From positions 1-53,057 of the forward strand of contig CAMDKK010000025.1 in NCBI GenBank assembly GCA_945901045.1: 53,057 nucleotides of DNA, read 5' to 3'. The translations under genes were made by a program, and so were the position numbers. Source of the DNA: Limnohabitans sp. Rim8. Its GTDB lineage: Bacteria; Pseudomonadota; Gammaproteobacteria; Burkholderiales; Burkholderiaceae_C. The stretch's first letter is position 1. Each line of letters begins with the position of its first letter. The notes under the pieces were generated by a model. That model was not told where the DNA came from. It saw only the letters and a program-made list of their open reading frames with translations, and ran no database searches. Positions 4,403 to 38,887 of this stretch are shown here, in pieces.

Positions 4403-5697
4403 TCCCCACGCTCCTGTTTGTGGCATTTGTCACCATGATGTTGATGGGCGTGCCCATTGGCGCCGCGCTCGGCTTGGCTGGTGCTGCGTGCATTGCCTTG
4501 GCCAATTCGGATGCGCAATGGTTTGGCCTGTTGGCTGTACCGCAAAATTTTTATGCAGGCTTGGGCAAATATCCCCTGCTGGCGATACCCATGTTTGTTT
4601 TGGTCGGCTCCATCTTTGACCGCTCGGGTGTGGCGCTGCGCTTGGTCAACTTTGCTGTGGCCATTGTGGGGCGAGGCCCGGGCATGTTGCCGTTGGTGGC
4701 GATTGTGGTGGCCATGTTTTTGGGTGGCATTTCAGGCTCAGGACCCGCCAATGCGGCGGCTGTGGGCGCGGTCATGATCGCGGCCATGTCACGCGCCGGT
4801 TACCCGCCAGCTTTTTCTGCCAGCGTGGTCGGCGCGGCGGCGGCCACCGATATTTTGATTCCGCCTTCCGTGGCCTTCATCGTGTATTCGGTCTTGGTGC
4901 CTGGCGCCTCCGTGCCCGCCTTGTTTGCGGCCGGCATGATTCCTGGCATTTTGGCGGGCGTGGCCCTGATCGTGCCAGCCGTCTGGATGGCCCGCAAACA
5001 CAAAATGGGGGCACTCGAGGCCAGCTTGCCGCGCCCTGAATTGTGGAAAAGCTTTATCGAAGCGACCTGGGGTTTGGCTGCGCCGGTGTTGATTTTGGGA
5101 GGGATGCGTGCCGGTTGGTTCACGCCTACCGAGGCCGCGGTTGTGGCCGTGTTCTATGGCTTGTTTGTGGGCATGGTGATTTACCGCACCATCCATTTCC
5201 GCGATCTTTTTGTGATCTTGCGTGAGTCGGGCGAACTGTCTGCCATCATTTTGTTGGTAGTCTCTCTGGCAGGAATTTTTGCTTTTTCCCTGTCAACCTT
5301 GGGTGTGATTGACCCCGTTACCCGAGCCATCGTCAATTCGGGCTTGGGTGAACACGGTGTCTTGGCCCTGCTGATCCTCTTGTTGATCACGGTGGGCATG
5401 TTCCTCGATGGTGTTTCGATCTTTCTGATCTTCGTGCCCTTGCTGTGGCCTATTGTTCAGTTTTACAAGTGGGACCCTGTCTGGTTTGGTGTCATCCTCA
5501 CACTCAAGGTGGCGCTGGGACAGTTCACCCCGCCCATGGCCGTGAACCTGATGGTATCGTGTCGCATCGCGGGTGTGCGCATGGAAGAAACAGTGCCCTG
5601 GGTGGGCTGGATGTTGTTTTCGATGTTCTTGGTCATGATCGCAGTCATCGTCTGGCCTGAGCTTGCTTTGTGGTTACCCCGTTATTTGGGTTATTGA
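4399..5697 (+). CDS. TRAP transporter large permease subunit (DctM family)
   Basis: The product is 432 residues with about 12 hydrophobic segments across its length. Typical DctM segments are visible: MLMGVPIGAALGLAGA, MFVLVGSIFDRSGVA, FLGGISGSGPANAAAVGAVM and ATDILIPPSVAFIVYS. It forms the sodium-coupled translocation unit with the small subunit upstream and receives substrate from the binding protein encoded 27 bp downstream. The start at 4399 overlaps the stop of the small subunit. The substrate cannot be read from this subunit; the neighbouring lactonase suggests a sugar acid or related carboxylate. Confidence 0.92.
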   Translation: MIPTLLFVAFVTMMLMGVPIGAALGLAGAACIALANSDAQWFGLLAVPQNFYAGLGKYPLLAIPMFVLVGSIFDRSGVALRLVNFAVAIVGRGPGMLPLVAIVVAMFLGGISGSGPANAAAVGAVMIAAMSRAGYPPAFSASVVGAAAATDILIPPSVAFIVYSVLVPGASVPALFAAGMIPGILAGVALIVPAVWMARKHKMGALEASLPRPELWKSFIEATWGLAAPVLILGGMRAGWFTPTEAAVVAVFYGLFVGMVIYRTIHFRDLFVILRESGELSAIILLVVSLAGIFAFSLSTLGVIDPVTRAIVNSGLGEHGVLALLILLLITVGMFLDGVSIFLIFVPLLWPIVQFYKWDPVWFGVILTLKVALGQFTPPMAVNLMVSCRIAGVRMEETVPWVGWMLFSMFLVMIAVIVWPELALWLPRYLGY

Positions 5698-34107: not shown

Positions 34108-35607
34108 TCAGGGCGGGCTCAGTTTTGAAAAATCCCGGTCTAAGTCATTCATCGCTTTGTCGATGAAATTCTTTTTGCTTGAAATCCAGCGTGATTGCGC
34201 TTGTATGGTCTGCTGGGCAAGTGACAACATGCGTTGCATTTCAATGGCTTGCGGGCCGCCCACGGTTTTTCGATTTTGAACGATGGTCTCGGGTTTCAGG
34301 GTGGCCTTGAACTCTGCTTCACCCATCGGTAATTCGGGGTTGGCAAGCTCATCTTTCACTGACATCTTGAAAATACGTTGCGCCTCTGAGTAAGGAAAAT
34401 CAAGGGGCTTGATGTTGTTCAGTTTCGCGTAGTCCACCACCTCTGAAGCAAAGTGATGGCCGGCCCGGAAGGGAATTTTGTATTTGTGCATCAACACATC
34501 GGCCAGTTCTTGTGAGGCGGTCCAATCGCTGTTGAGTTCTTCCAGTGCCCGTTCAGGATGAATGACCAGCCCCTTCATGATTTTGTCAAAGCCTTGCAAA
34601 AAGACGATGGCGCTTTTGACCATGTCGGTATGGGTCTTGGTATCCTTGGCGTCAGCCATGCCGGGCGTGATGTTGTGTGCGCGAATGACGGGGCCCATCG
34701 CCAATGCGATGGACGTCGATGCATCGCGGCGGGTGTCGTTGAGCAAACCAGGGTTGCGTTTTTGTGGCATGGCACTGGACACATAAGTGTTGCCCCCACC
34801 TTCTTGCAACAAGATCCATGGACGTGGCTGGGCATACTGTGTCATTACGTCTTCGATGAAGCTGCCCACATGCAGGGCCATGGCGGTGACCAATGCGGCC
34901 ACTTCAACAGGGTGTTCGCTCGAAGAAATTTGAGCTGCGTCGTAAGCGTTGTCAACGAGGGCCGCAAAACCGAGGTAGTTGGCCATGCGCAAGCGATTCA
35001 AAGGCCAGCTTGATCCATTCAGAACGGTCGTGCCCATGGCTGAGCGGTCGATGCGTGCATAGGCCTCACGCAAGCGTTGGGCATCACGTTCCAAGCCGGC
35101 GGCATGCCCCAAAAGGTAGTGGCCATAACTGTTGGGCTGGGCCGCAACACCGTTGGTGTAGTTGGGAACAATGGTTTTGCTGTGTCGTTCGGCCAAGTTC
35201 ACCAGGGTGGCTGAGCTTAGATTCAGTTGCTCAGCCAGAGCCAACAAGTCATCTTTCAAAATGGCGGCACGGTAGGTGGCGTGCATGTCTTGGCTGGAAC
35301 GCCCCGCGTGCAGTAAGGTCACGTCTTGGCCCGCGGCACGAATCAATAAGGGCTCAAACGTAATCACAGTGGAAGGCCTGCGGCCACCAGGCAACGCGCC
35401 GTCTTGCAAAACTTTGACAATCCCGGCCGCAATGCGGGGCACCTTGGCGGGATCCAGCAAACCCTCTTCGCTGTTGATGACCGTGGTGGCCTTGTTCATT
35501 TGACCAAGCCAATAGAACTCGTCTCTGGGCGCGGGCTTTTGTGCCCATGCAGAACTGGCCCCTACACACAGTGTGATGGCCGCAGCGATGTGCTTGAGTT
35601 TCAACAA
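34108..35607 (-). CDS. Exported argininosuccinate-lyase-like enzyme (fumarase/aspartase superfamily)
   Basis: This 499-residue protein aligns by eye with argininosuccinate lyase and the related EDDS lyase. LHAGRSSQDMHAT (residues 99-111) matches the LHTGRS segment, GTTVLNGSSWPLNR (192-205) the GTTYPIDR segment, and SSAMPQKRNP (277-286) the superfamily signature with catalytic Ser. Two points are unusual. Residues 1-22 form a clear Sec signal peptide (hydrophobic core AAAITLCVGASSA, cleavage AWA/Q), although this superfamily is normally cytoplasmic. The catalytic His of the YTHLQ segment in argininosuccinate lyase is Asn152 here (YTNGVAAQP). It ends the operon that starts with ttuC. A periplasmic lyase releasing fumarate or a similar C4 acid from an adduct is inferred. 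Confidence 0.85.
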   Translation of the reverse strand: MLKLKHIAAAITLCVGASSAWAQKPAPRDEFYWLGQMNKATTVINSEEGLLDPAKVPRIAAGIVKVLQDGALPGGRRPSTVITFEPLLIRAAGQDVTLLHAGRSSQDMHATYRAAILKDDLLALAEQLNLSSATLVNLAERHSKTIVPNYTNGVAAQPNSYGHYLLGHAAGLERDAQRLREAYARIDRSAMGTTVLNGSSWPLNRLRMANYLGFAALVDNAYDAAQISSSEHPVEVAALVTAMALHVGSFIEDVMTQYAQPRPWILLQEGGGNTYVSSAMPQKRNPGLLNDTRRDASTSIALAMGPVIRAHNITPGMADAKDTKTHTDMVKSAIVFLQGFDKIMKGLVIHPERALEELNSDWTASQELADVLMHKYKIPFRAGHHFASEVVDYAKLNNIKPLDFPYSEAQRIFKMSVKDELANPELPMGEAEFKATLKPETIVQNRKTVGGPQAIEMQRMLSLAQQTIQAQSRWISSKKNFIDKAMNDLDRDFSKLSPP

Positions 35608-35637
35608 GGTATGTCCTCAGATTCAAATCAAATGGAT

Positions 35638-36804
35638 TCAACTGGCCAGCAGTTTCATCTCGGTATACAGGTCGGCTTTGCCTTCAAAGCCGATGCCGGG
35701 TAACTCGGGCAGGTCGACATAACCGTTGTCGACCTTGACCCCGTCAGGAAAGCCGCCATAAGGCTGGAACAGATCGGGGTAGCTCTCGTTGCCGCCCAGC
35801 CCCAAGCCGGCCGCAATCGCCAATGACATCTGGTGCCCTCCGTGCGGGATGCAGCGGCTGGGCGACCAGCCGTTTTCTTTCAGCATGTCCAGTGTGCGCA
35901 GGTACTCCACCAGACCGTAGCTCAGGGCGCAATCGAATTGCAGCCAATCGCGGTCGGGGCGCATACCGCCGTAGCGGATCAAGTTGCGTGCATCTTGCAT
36001 GGAGAACAGGTTTTCGCCGGTGGCCATGGGCGGTGCGTAGTGCGGTGCCAGGGCAGCCTGCAGTTCATAGTCGAGCGGGTCGCCGGCTTCTTCGTACCAA
36101 AACAAGTTGTAGCCGGCCAAGGCTTTGGCGTAGGCCATGGCGGTGGGCAAGTCAAACCGGCCATTCGCATCGACCGCCAAGCGTTGGCCCGGGGCCAGCA
36201 TTTTCAGCACGGCTTCAATGCGCTGGCAGTCTTCGCTCAGGCTGGCGCCGCCGATTTTCATTTTCACCACCGAGTAACCGCGGTCCAAATAGCTTTGCAT
36301 TTCGTCCGTCAGGCCGGCCAGCCCCTTGCCTGGCCAGTAGTAGCCACCGGCGGCATAAACAAACACTTTGCGATTAGCTTGGCCGTTGCCATAGCGCTCA
36401 GCCAGCAATTGGTAAAGCGGCTTGCCTGCGATCTTGGCCACCGCATCCCAAATCGCCATGTCCATGGTCCCCACCGCCACCGAGCGCTCGCCATGGCCGC
36501 CGGGCTTTTCGTTGGTCATCATGGTGGCCCAGATTTTGTGCGGGTCCAGGTTGTCACTGGCGTCGTCCAGCAGGCTGTCAGCGGGCGCTTCCAAGATGCG
36601 CGGAATGAAGCGCTCGCGCATCAAGTGGCCTTGGCCGTAGCGGCCATTGGAGTTGAACCCATAGCCAACCACGGGCCGGCCGTCGCGGATCACGTCAGTC
36701 ACCACAGCCACCAGGCTGAGGTTCATTTTCGAAAAGTCGATGTAAGCGTTGCGAATATTGCTCTGGATGGAGCGGGTCGATTCGCGAATTTCAGTGATTC
36801 TCAA
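35638..36804 (-). CDS. tarD: D-tartrate dehydratase (enolase superfamily)
   Basis: This 388-residue enzyme dehydrates D-tartrate to oxaloacetate. From memory it is very close to the characterised Bradyrhizobium TarD, with the same key residues shifted by one: the KxK base at 181/183, the magnesium ligands Asp212, Glu238 and Glu264 (VDANGRF, WYEEAGDPLD, GENLFSMQD), and the catalytic His321 (PHGGHQMSLAIAAGLGLGG). The start is at 36804, 11 bp after the Bug receptor. It belongs to a four-gene tartrate operon. An alternative substrate would need a change of the very same residues, so the assignment is firm. Confidence 0.93.
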   Translation of the reverse strand: MRITEIRESTRSIQSNIRNAYIDFSKMNLSLVAVVTDVIRDGRPVVGYGFNSNGRYGQGHLMRERFIPRILEAPADSLLDDASDNLDPHKIWATMMTNEKPGGHGERSVAVGTMDMAIWDAVAKIAGKPLYQLLAERYGNGQANRKVFVYAAGGYYWPGKGLAGLTDEMQSYLDRGYSVVKMKIGGASLSEDCQRIEAVLKMLAPGQRLAVDANGRFDLPTAMAYAKALAGYNLFWYEEAGDPLDYELQAALAPHYAPPMATGENLFSMQDARNLIRYGGMRPDRDWLQFDCALSYGLVEYLRTLDMLKENGWSPSRCIPHGGHQMSLAIAAGLGLGGNESYPDLFQPYGGFPDGVKVDNGYVDLPELPGIGFEGKADLYTEMKLLAS

Positions 36805-36815
36805 AACACATTTCC

Positions 36816-37793
36816 TTATTTTTTACCCAGACCCAATCGTTTGGCGCCTTCGATGTACAGCGCGGTGCGCTCTTTCATGAAAGCGTCCATTTGATCGGTG
36901 CCAATATTGACCAACTCGAAGCCGCTTTTAGCAGCCAGCTCTTTCATTTCAGGGTCATTGTTCAGAGTGGCCCACATGTCAGAGATTTTTTTGCGGGCTT
37001 CGGGCGAAGTTGATTTGGGCGCACCGATACCGCGGTAAGCACCATCGATCCAGTCCACGCCCAGCTCACGGAATGTGGGCACATTGGGCATGAGGGGGTG
37101 GCGTTTTTCCATGGCCACCGCCAAGGGGCGCACTTTGCCTTTGTTGGCAATCGCAAACGGCGTGTAGGTCACGGCCCCGTCAATCTGCGCGCCCACCACG
37201 GCCATCGACATGTCGCCTGTGCCTTTGTAGGGCACATAGGTGCTTTTGATGCCAAAGGCCGCATTCAGCCGCTCATGCGCGGCGTGGTTGGCCGAGTTCA
37301 GACCCGAGCCGCCCAGGTTCATTTTGCCAGGCGACGCTTTGGCCGCGGCAATGAATTCAGCAAAGCTTTTGATGGGGCTGTTCTCGGGGACCACCAGCAC
37401 GTCCGGCGTGTAGTGGAACCAGTACACCGGCGTGATGTCGGCGGTTTTGTATTGAACCTCGCCCTCGATCGGCTGGAACACAATGTGTGGCAGGTTGATG
37501 CCCACCACGTTCAGGCCGTCACCGGGCAGGTTGTTCATCTGACTCCACATCAGGCCGCCGCCCGCACCTGCCTTGTATTGGATGATGGTGTCGATGGCAG
37601 CGCACTTTTTCTTGAGGACCACCTGTTGGTGGCGCGCAGACAAATCTGATTCGCCCCCCGGCGGAAAGGCTTGCCAATACAGCAGGTTCTTTTCGGGGCA
37701 ACCACCGGGGATGCCTTGGGCCATGGCCACAGGGGTCAGGCAGGCCAGTGTCAGGCACAAGAGGCCTAGCCAGCGGGTGAGGGTTGTGTTCAT
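36816..37793 (-). CDS. Bug family solute receptor of the tartrate operon
   Basis: This is a 325-residue periplasmic receptor of the tripartite tricarboxylate transporter type. The ATG at 37793 follows AAGGAG at good spacing, and a signal peptide ends near VAMAQG. Family segments are seen in YWQAFPPGGESDLSARHQQV, IIQYKAGAGGGLMWSQMNN and MPNVPTFRELGVDWIDGAYR. It sits between ttuC and tarD, so a tartrate-like dicarboxylate is its likely ligand. Permease partners are elsewhere, as is usual. It diverges in sequence from the other two Bug receptors in the window, including a CPEKNLLYWQ opening after the signal. Confidence 0.88.
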   Translation of the reverse strand: MNTTLTRWLGLLCLTLACLTPVAMAQGIPGGCPEKNLLYWQAFPPGGESDLSARHQQVVLKKKCAAIDTIIQYKAGAGGGLMWSQMNNLPGDGLNVVGINLPHIVFQPIEGEVQYKTADITPVYWFHYTPDVLVVPENSPIKSFAEFIAAAKASPGKMNLGGSGLNSANHAAHERLNAAFGIKSTYVPYKGTGDMSMAVVGAQIDGAVTYTPFAIANKGKVRPLAVAMEKRHPLMPNVPTFRELGVDWIDGAYRGIGAPKSTSPEARKKISDMWATLNNDPEMKELAAKSGFELVNIGTDQMDAFMKERTALYIEGAKRLGLGKK

Positions 37794-37816
37794 GCGTGTC
37801 TCCTTCAGTGTGTAAG

Positions 37817-38887
37817 TTATTTGTTGTGCAACTGTTGGCACACGGCCTCGGTCACTTGGGCCGTTCCGGCTGGCCCACCCAGGTCGCGTGTGTGCAGTTG
37901 CGGATCGGTCGTCACCGCTTCAATGGCTTGCATCAATTGCTTGGCAGGGGCAGTCAAACCGATGTGTTCGAGCAGCATGACGCAGCTCCAAAACGTGCCG
38001 ATCGGGTTGGCCAGACCTTGGCCCATGATGTCAAACGCTGAGCCGTGGATGGGCTCGAACATCGAGGGGTAGCGTCGCTCTGGGTCGATGTTGCCCGTGG
38101 GGGCAATGCCCAGACTGCCGGCCAAGGCAGCCGCCAGATCGCTCAAAATATCGGCATGCAAGTTGGTGGCCACCACAGTGTCCAGCGAGGCGGGGCGGTT
38201 GACCATGCGCGCGGTGCAGGCATCGACCAGCTCTTTGTCCCAATGCACATCAGGGAACTCAGCGCTAATTTCTTTGGCAATTTCGTCCCACATCACCATG
38301 GCATGGCGCTGGGCGTTTGACTTGGTTACCACCGTCAGCAGTTTGCGGGGCCGCGATTGCGCCAACTTGAAGGCATAGCGCATGATGCGCTGAACGCCCA
38401 CGCGGGTCATCATGGACACATCGGTGGCCACTTCGATGGGGTGCCCTTGGTGGGCGCGACCCCCCACACCGGCGTATTCGCCTTCGGAGTTTTCGCGCAC
38501 GATCACCCAGTCCAGTTGCGCGGGCGTACAGCGCTTGAGAGGGGCATCGATGCCGGGCAAGATGCGTGTGGGCCGCACATTGGCGTATTGGTCAAAGCCC
38601 TGGCAAATCTTCAGGCGCAGTCCCCACAGCGTGATGTGATCGGGAATGTCCGGGTCGCCGGCCGAGCCGAACAAGATGGCGTCCATCGGGCGCAACGCGT
38701 CAAGGCCGTCAGCCGGCATCATCACGCCATGGCGGCGGTAATAGTCACCGCCCCAATCGAAGGAGTGAAAGTCAAAGCGAAAATCTGTGGACTTCGCGGC
38801 CAAAGCCGCCAGAACGGTTTGTCCTGCAGGAATGACTTCCTGGCCAATCCCGTCTCCGGGGATGCAAGCGATATTGTAGGTTTTCAT
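37817..38887 (-). CDS. ttuC: Tartrate dehydrogenase/decarboxylase (TtuC family)
   Basis: This 356-residue beta-decarboxylating dehydrogenase (isocitrate/isopropylmalate superfamily) opens IACIPGDGIGQEVIPAG. The substrate loop DHITLWGLRLKICQGFDQYA is typical of tartrate/D-malate dehydrogenases rather than LeuB. NLHADILSDLAAALAGSLG and EPIHGSAFDIMGQG contain the metal and cofactor sites. TtuC acts on L- and meso-tartrate and D-malate using NAD. It is the first gene of the operon; the start at 38887 is 73 bp from marC. D-malate dehydrogenase (DmlA) is the closest alternative name. Confidence 0.9.
   Translation of the reverse strand: MKTYNIACIPGDGIGQEVIPAGQTVLAALAAKSTDFRFDFHSFDWGGDYYRRHGVMMPADGLDALRPMDAILFGSAGDPDIPDHITLWGLRLKICQGFDQYANVRPTRILPGIDAPLKRCTPAQLDWVIVRENSEGEYAGVGGRAHQGHPIEVATDVSMMTRVGVQRIMRYAFKLAQSRPRKLLTVVTKSNAQRHAMVMWDEIAKEISAEFPDVHWDKELVDACTARMVNRPASLDTVVATNLHADILSDLAAALAGSLGIAPTGNIDPERRYPSMFEPIHGSAFDIMGQGLANPIGTFWSCVMLLEHIGLTAPAKQLMQAIEAVTTDPQLHTRDLGGPAGTAQVTEAVCQQLHNK

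Follow-up and report, generated by a model that had tools for sequence, protein, structure and literature searches.

The 53,057-nt contig CAMDKK010000025.1 of Limnohabitans sp. Rim8 (assembly GCA_945901045.1), hereafter the window, carries a gene for an argininosuccinate-lyase-like protein (the lyase) that bears a predicted export signal and falls in a distinct clade whose members lack the catalytic His-Glu pair of argininosuccinate lyase (ArgH). Sequence comparisons establish the predicted signal, the predicted fold, the residues of the serine loop, the loss of the pair (His162 and Glu296 in delta-crystallin numbering) at the origin of the clade, a low cysteine content in exported members and the disappearance of the signal from a few lineages. 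The protein is probably a periplasmic lyase of the argininosuccinate lyase branch that frees a C4 acid from a compound outside the inner membrane. We give about even chances to a wider account, in which the clade is an extracytoplasmic, cysteine-poor lineage that lost the His-Glu pair as export arose, releases fumarate or a similar C4 acid from conjugates outside the inner membrane, and has re-internalised lineages that mostly accompany a DcuC carrier.

The open reading frame, the predicted signal and the missing His described in a first-pass annotation, made from the letters alone, are confirmed at the level of sequence; the strand, which it had not given, is minus (Table 1). Residues 1-22, MLKLKHIAAAITLCVGASSAWA with Gln after the cleavage site, read as a Sec-like signal. 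Reading backwards from the TTG start, the codons ACC, CAT and GGA are followed by a TGA, in frame and four codons from the start. Codon 2, TTG as well, is a possible alternative start; beyond it no in-frame ATG, GTG or TTG occurs before Met37, within the conserved domain. A start after residue 22, which the first-pass annotation had raised as a ground for doubt, is not credible, since Met37 lies past Phe31 and Trp33, both invariant in 81 of 81 sequences (the lyase and 80 loci kept of 243 relatives in genome contigs). The upstream TGA thus forces the start, which has a Shine-Dalgarno-like motif, so that the predicted signal is no start-site artefact; close homologues have a signal as well. In the AlphaFold model, a helix spans residues 4-18, pLDDT is below 50 at residues 16-23 and the first domain helix begins at residue 30.

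The Ser-Ser loop is intact, and the likeness to argininosuccinate lyase was borne out by Pfam, with Lyase_1 (82.8 bits) and ASL_C2 (33.9 bits) both above cut-off. In contrast, the score for the ArgH equivalog TIGR00838 was 175.1 bits against a cut-off of 279.5, and a second, ArgH-like gene, 27% identical to the lyase, lies elsewhere in the genome. A tree was built from 65 rows after three trait columns had been masked. In it, the 50 rows of the family separated from 15 ArgH, ArgH-like and EDDS lyase rows with support of 100/100; the lyase is thus placed outside the cytoplasmic, His-bearing ArgH proteins, and forcing the genome's own ArgH-like row into the family cost 61 log units (p-AU 0.0037). 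EDDS lyase adjoined the family weakly (95/77, on a long branch). The NCBIfam scores for XcbC and PRK06705 (163 and 171 bits) were comparable to that for ArgH but far below their own cut-offs (575 and 883 bits), and membership in the XcbC family was rejected, as no match above cut-off was found in 299 genomes and the loci from that search had ArgH motifs. CMLE, PurB and other superfamily members ranked lower among the structural matches, which carries no evidence on membership. The Lyase_1 fold and the SSxMPxKxNP loop with its catalytic Ser place the lyase in the aspartase/fumarase superfamily, whose enzymes are homotetramers with composite active sites; our structure model is of a monomer only. 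By sequence, the lyase is a non-ArgH superfamily member in a distinct clade that is often misnamed: 14 plasmid records with a close relative comprised six named argininosuccinate lyase, four named 'lyase family protein' and four with no listed feature.

In an alignment with duck delta-2 crystallin, Thr151, Asn152, Ser277, Lys283, Asn285 and Asn290 of the lyase corresponded to Thr161, His162, Ser283, Lys289, Asn291 and Glu296, respectively, and Arg115 and Asn116 of the crystallin were replaced by Ser105 and Gln106. The first-pass annotation had rightly matched the His of the YTHLQ motif to Asn152, and had missed the replacements at Arg115, Asn116 and Glu296. The His162-Glu296 pair of delta-crystallin serves as a charge relay. 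Asn152 was invariant in the 81 close sequences and in all 107 deduplicated core sequences, and is therefore not a chance change. Over 190 deduplicated rows (107 core, 9 early-branching with Asn, 15 His relatives and 59 ArgH-like), the counterpart of Glu296 was kept in 74 of 74 His rows and absent from 116 of 116 Asn rows, and the catalytic Ser, Lys, Asn and Thr, together with the His and Ser of region 1, were invariant throughout. The claim that a catalytic His is missing stands for this protein, but the absence is not unique, as EDDS lyase has Gln there, and the His went together with its Glu partner, both members of the pair being lost.

Compared with ArgH and delta-crystallin (TIGR00838), the lyase shares the fold, the Lyase_1 and ASL_C2 domains, the Ser283 loop, Thr161, Lys289 and Asn291, and differs in the replacement of His162, Glu296, Arg115 and Asn116, in its score below cut-off, in its predicted export signal and in a mature protein without cysteine. 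The closest fold was that of EDDS lyase from Chelativorans sp. BNC1 (6g3d, 6g3e, 6g3i, 6rx8), which releases fumarate from N-substituted aspartates and also lacks the His; the two were 22-23% identical, EDDS lyase keeping the RND motif and Glu296, whereas the lyase keeps neither. Asp290 and Tyr320 of EDDS lyase, which line the amine side of the site, correspond to Gly287 and Met317 in the lyase, the latter less surely as the alignment is gapped near residue 317. Both EDDS lyase residues are named in the title of entry 6rx8. The sister group of the family was a cytoplasmic, His-bearing GRSRQD clade (L203-L213, L089, L090 and L218; 100/99 for its 14 rows), which shares Gln106, Gly153, Val154, His311 and Asn312 with the lyase but, unlike it, keeps the His152-Glu290 pair, Arg105 and cysteines and has no signal by our rule. 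Other His-bearing cytoplasmic relatives stood at loci L151 (1306-9597) and L227, with Bug receptors, a CoA-transferase III, an HpcH/HpaI-type protein and a molybdopterin oxidase (Pfam on L151 only), and a divergent one (29%) with GRSRID and SSIFPQK motifs was seen on the megaplasmid of Cupriavidus metallidurans CH34 (L162).

Signals were called with a home-made rule (positive n-region, hydrophobic core and AxA-type site), whose strict first form passed only 76 of 107 core rows. By the relaxed rule, 97 of the 107 core rows and 8 of the 9 early-branching rows with Asn carry a signal, against none of the 15 His relatives and none of the 59 ArgH-like rows. The totals are 105 of 116 Asn rows vs 0 of 74 His rows (a Fisher test on this table ignores kinship). 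The 10 core rows that failed comprised eight that seem truly signal-less, L191, whose evident signal lies slightly beyond the stretch scanned (treated as exported in the cysteine count only), and L139, with an atypical signal and no cysteine (treated as signal-less). Of the 106 exported rows, 98 are free of cysteine across the lyase domain (residues 30-480), and the mature lyase of this genome has none. Mean counts were 3.6 in the nine core rows without a detected signal, 3.0 in His relatives and 4.0 in ArgH-like rows, and the single signal-less early-branching row had six. This scarcity in the exported rows independently supports the predicted location. On the tree, the residue at the His/Asn site changed once and the signal state five times. 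The simplest history suggested by these counts would be a gain of export and a loss of the His-Glu pair on the same branch, followed by four losses of export; a loss and then a regain of the signal within one family of small genomes is an equally possible alternative. As the change to Asn and export fall on one branch, their link is a single observation, in which cause and effect are indistinguishable.

By this tree count, four lineages appear to have lost the signal, and in three of these the gene adjoins one for a DcuC carrier. Seven Asn rows without a signal (L146, L197, L198, L214, L215, L216 and L219), with 3 to 6 cysteines each, were each adjoined by a DcuC-type C4-dicarboxylate carrier on the same strand, at a gap of 2-82 nt between called genes; the two neighbours tested scored above cut-off for Pfam DcuC and NF037994. 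No DcuC was found near the 106 exported loci or near the eight His loci, and three of three independent pairs joined signal loss to DcuC. Within 2 kb of the cytoplasmic His relatives there were seven Bug genes, in 5 of 8 loci, with two further out. The presence of Bug receptors by His relatives and of DcuC by signal-less rows indicates that an importer gene tends to accompany the enzyme where it is cytoplasmic but not where it is exported. The pairing with DcuC and importers is the best clue that the substrate or product may be a C4-dicarboxylate.

In the mechanism that we propose, a substituted succinate bound in the periplasm would lose its beta proton to Ser277, and cleavage of the bond, whether C-N, C-O or another, would proceed without the protein acid of the His-Glu pair. 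The leaving group would depart already protonated or as a stable anion, whether an amine as in EDDS lyase, a carboxylate or similar. The C4 product would most likely be fumarate, a suggestion helped by the DcuC linkage, and would be taken up by general C4-dicarboxylate importers such as TRAP DctM. In this genome the lyase gene has joined a tartrate catabolic operon.

Several observations weigh against this account. The signal rule was home-made and relaxed once, although the ArgH-like control stayed at 0 of 59. The change from His to Asn is one event on one branch, so that its link with export has one independent pair behind it. One or two cysteines were present in 8 of 106 exported rows, and the signal-less second copies at L026 and L055 have only one cysteine each and no DcuC; these are tandem lyases in two alphaproteobacterial metagenome-assembled genomes (L026 7992-10963 and L055 1952-4925), the first copy with a signal and the second without. 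The three DcuC pairs give only p 0.25. As for uptake, DctA was not enriched beside exported members, and no SDF/DctA match was found in this genome, which is 94% complete. DctM was enriched: it stood within 2 kb of exported members at six loci, and only two DctM genes lay at 2-8 kb. Five of those six loci, however, represent one alphaproteobacterial arrangement.

A rather unlikely alternative is that the protein is exported and active but yields a product other than fumarate, by eliminating another group from a small di- or tricarboxylate or by isomerising or decarboxylating it, as do CMLE and trans-aconitate decarboxylase, which have the same fold. It would suit the SSQD of region 1, where ArgH and EDDS lyase have RND, and the appearance of CMLE and Tad1 among the structural matches, and the CoA-transferase III and HpcH/HpaI genes beside the cytoplasmic His relative L151 would fit a branched dicarboxylate. 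However, the strongest sequence and fold matches were to argininosuccinate and EDDS lyases, and the DcuC linkage points to a C4-dicarboxylate.

It is improbable that the protein is a catalytically dead periplasmic binding or structural protein. Some delta-crystallins are catalytically dead, and loss of the His-Glu pair could mean lost activity here: the title of PDB entry 1dcn describes an inactive H162N mutant of delta-2 crystallin, changed at the same residue as Asn152. Against this, Ser277, Lys283, Asn285, Thr151 and the SSAMPQK loop were invariant in the 81 close sequences, and a C4 carrier gene accompanied each of the seven signal-less members. EDDS lyase is active (PMC9486952) although its residue at the His162 site is Gln, with the Glu kept, and the His is thus dispensable for some substrates.

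The first-pass annotation had placed the gene in an operon with tartrate enzymes and a Bug receptor, and had proposed a check of whether exported homologues keep this context. The operon itself is real: the lyase is the last of four tightly spaced minus-strand genes (Table 1), which include a TIGR02089 tartrate dehydrogenase, the Bug receptor and an enzyme closely resembling Bll6730, a D-tartrate dehydratase. These genes would fit a lyase that splits a tartrate- or malate-linked adduct so that the operon uses both halves. The context was not kept, as the enolase-superfamily partner stood beside the lyase at 0 of 128 other loci (some only 1.5 kb wide), and a tartrate context was rejected as a family trait. 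Tartrate dehydrogenase (at least 50% identity) recurred at two other loci only, L080 (about 2.6 kb away) and L148 (about 2.1 kb, opposite strand). The arrangement is seen only in the window, and the tartrate link is thus not general. We consider this explanation quite unlikely, and an adduct yielding tartrate and fumarate is a local possibility only.

Table 1. Positions in the window of the lyase gene, its features and its operon partners
Feature	Position	Strand	Basis or remark
Argininosuccinate-lyase-like gene, exported (predicted)	34108..35607	minus	499 aa; TTG initiation codon at 35607 and TGA stop codon at 34110-34108
Sec signal peptide (predicted), residues 1-22, cleavage AWA/Q	35542..35607	minus	Sequence; property conserved in close homologues
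Shine-Dalgarno-like GAGGA	35614..35618	minus	6 nt before TTG; overlaps in-frame TGA at 35617-35619
GRSSQD, residues 102-107, replacing ArgH GRSRND	35287..35304	minus	Sequence comparison
Asn152, counterpart of catalytic His162 of delta-2 crystallin	35152..35154	minus	Alignment
Mobile catalytic loop TYVSSAMPQKRNP, residues 274-286; Ser277, Lys283, Asn285 invariant	34750..34788	minus	Alignment; pLDDT <50 at 274-283
Asn290, counterpart of Glu296, partner of the lost His	34738..34740	minus	Alignment
Enolase-superfamily enzyme, 30 nt gap to lyase	35638..36804	minus	Bll6730 (2dw7, 1tzz) 668 bits; MR_MLE_C
Bug-type (TctC) periplasmic solute receptor	36816..37841	minus	Pfam
Tartrate dehydrogenase, first gene of the four-gene run	37817..38887	minus	TIGR02089 541 vs cut-off 470.4 bits; 3flk 333 bits

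It is scarcely credible that the lyase is a usual isozyme of argininosuccinate lyase whose N-terminus is spurious: the six plasmid records with that name and the ASL_C2 match speak for it, but the ArgH cut-off is missed, a separate ArgH-like gene is present and is rejected as a member of the clade, the start is forced, cysteine is absent from the mature protein and the His-Glu pair is lost.

Returning to the periplasmic lyase that we favour, we surveyed the neighbourhoods of the 80 loci, with genes called by a codon-usage caller. In most of them the lyase stood among differing genes; seven annotated plasmid records agreed, an eighth being without annotation. Bug genes were rejected as a conserved partner of exported members, as their density at exported loci was 2.7 per 100 kb (merged genes) at both 0-2 kb and 2-8 kb. 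Porins lay within 2 kb at 5 of 106 exported loci, with none at 2-8 kb, but the two porin queries came from two of those loci; in G057, G579 and G671 a porin lay directly upstream of the lyase (Pfam on the G057 porin). The window holds a TRAP DctM gene (4417-5664), a possible C4-dicarboxylate importer, and there were 25 DctM matches in this genome, some being pieces of one gene. In the near relatives G003, G006, G020 and L004, the genes 3' of the lyase resemble those of G020 (DUF4886, DUF3047); such followers, at L156 1125-2738, L154 5579-7144, L155 2776-4365 and L004 4252-5640, are exported- or lipoprotein-like (Pfam on L156 only). Just upstream of the lyase in Achromobacter (L048 6117-7784 and L082 6172-7773) is an aromatic-amino-acid-lyase family protein that seems signal-bearing and would be a second exported lyase (Pfam Lyase_aromatic, L048 only). 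At L017, L045, L047 and L070 the lyase is preceded, on its own strand and at a distance of 47-110 nt, by a large gene of tannase/feruloyl esterase type (Pfam on L047 only; L045 and L047 seem one strain), and in Aureimonas (L080 5399-7804) a penicillin-amidase family protein lies upstream. At L145 (G054), two ArgH-like lyases point apart within 5 kb, and the one tested scored above the ArgH cut-off.

The lyase is a patchy accessory gene. Of 36 genomes from the window's genus, four carried it at an identity of at least 64% and a fifth had a 72-residue fragment. Across the order, relatives, counting those with His, occurred in 33 of 300 genomes at E 1e-42; the figures were 5 of 398 for the phylum (E 1e-45) and 1 of 249 for the order of G169. 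An A. xylosoxidans genome had one family member, without a twin arginine, and one ArgH-like gene, which makes it unlikely that all three proteins reported from another strain are this lyase. In the open-access literature searched we recognised no paper on an exported member; PMC5373536 describes a putative argininosuccinate lyase of Advenella raised 6.4-fold on mercaptosuccinate, which may or may not belong to the family.

The name argininosuccinate lyase can pull relatives into models of the arginine pathway although they are predicted to be exported and lack the His-Glu pair of that enzyme. If the clade is active, it would be a natural test of superfamily catalysis without that acid and of use for C-N lyase engineering. 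A periplasmic lyase releasing C4 acids, if true, would be a new route feeding fumarate to Burkholderiales and other Proteobacteria.
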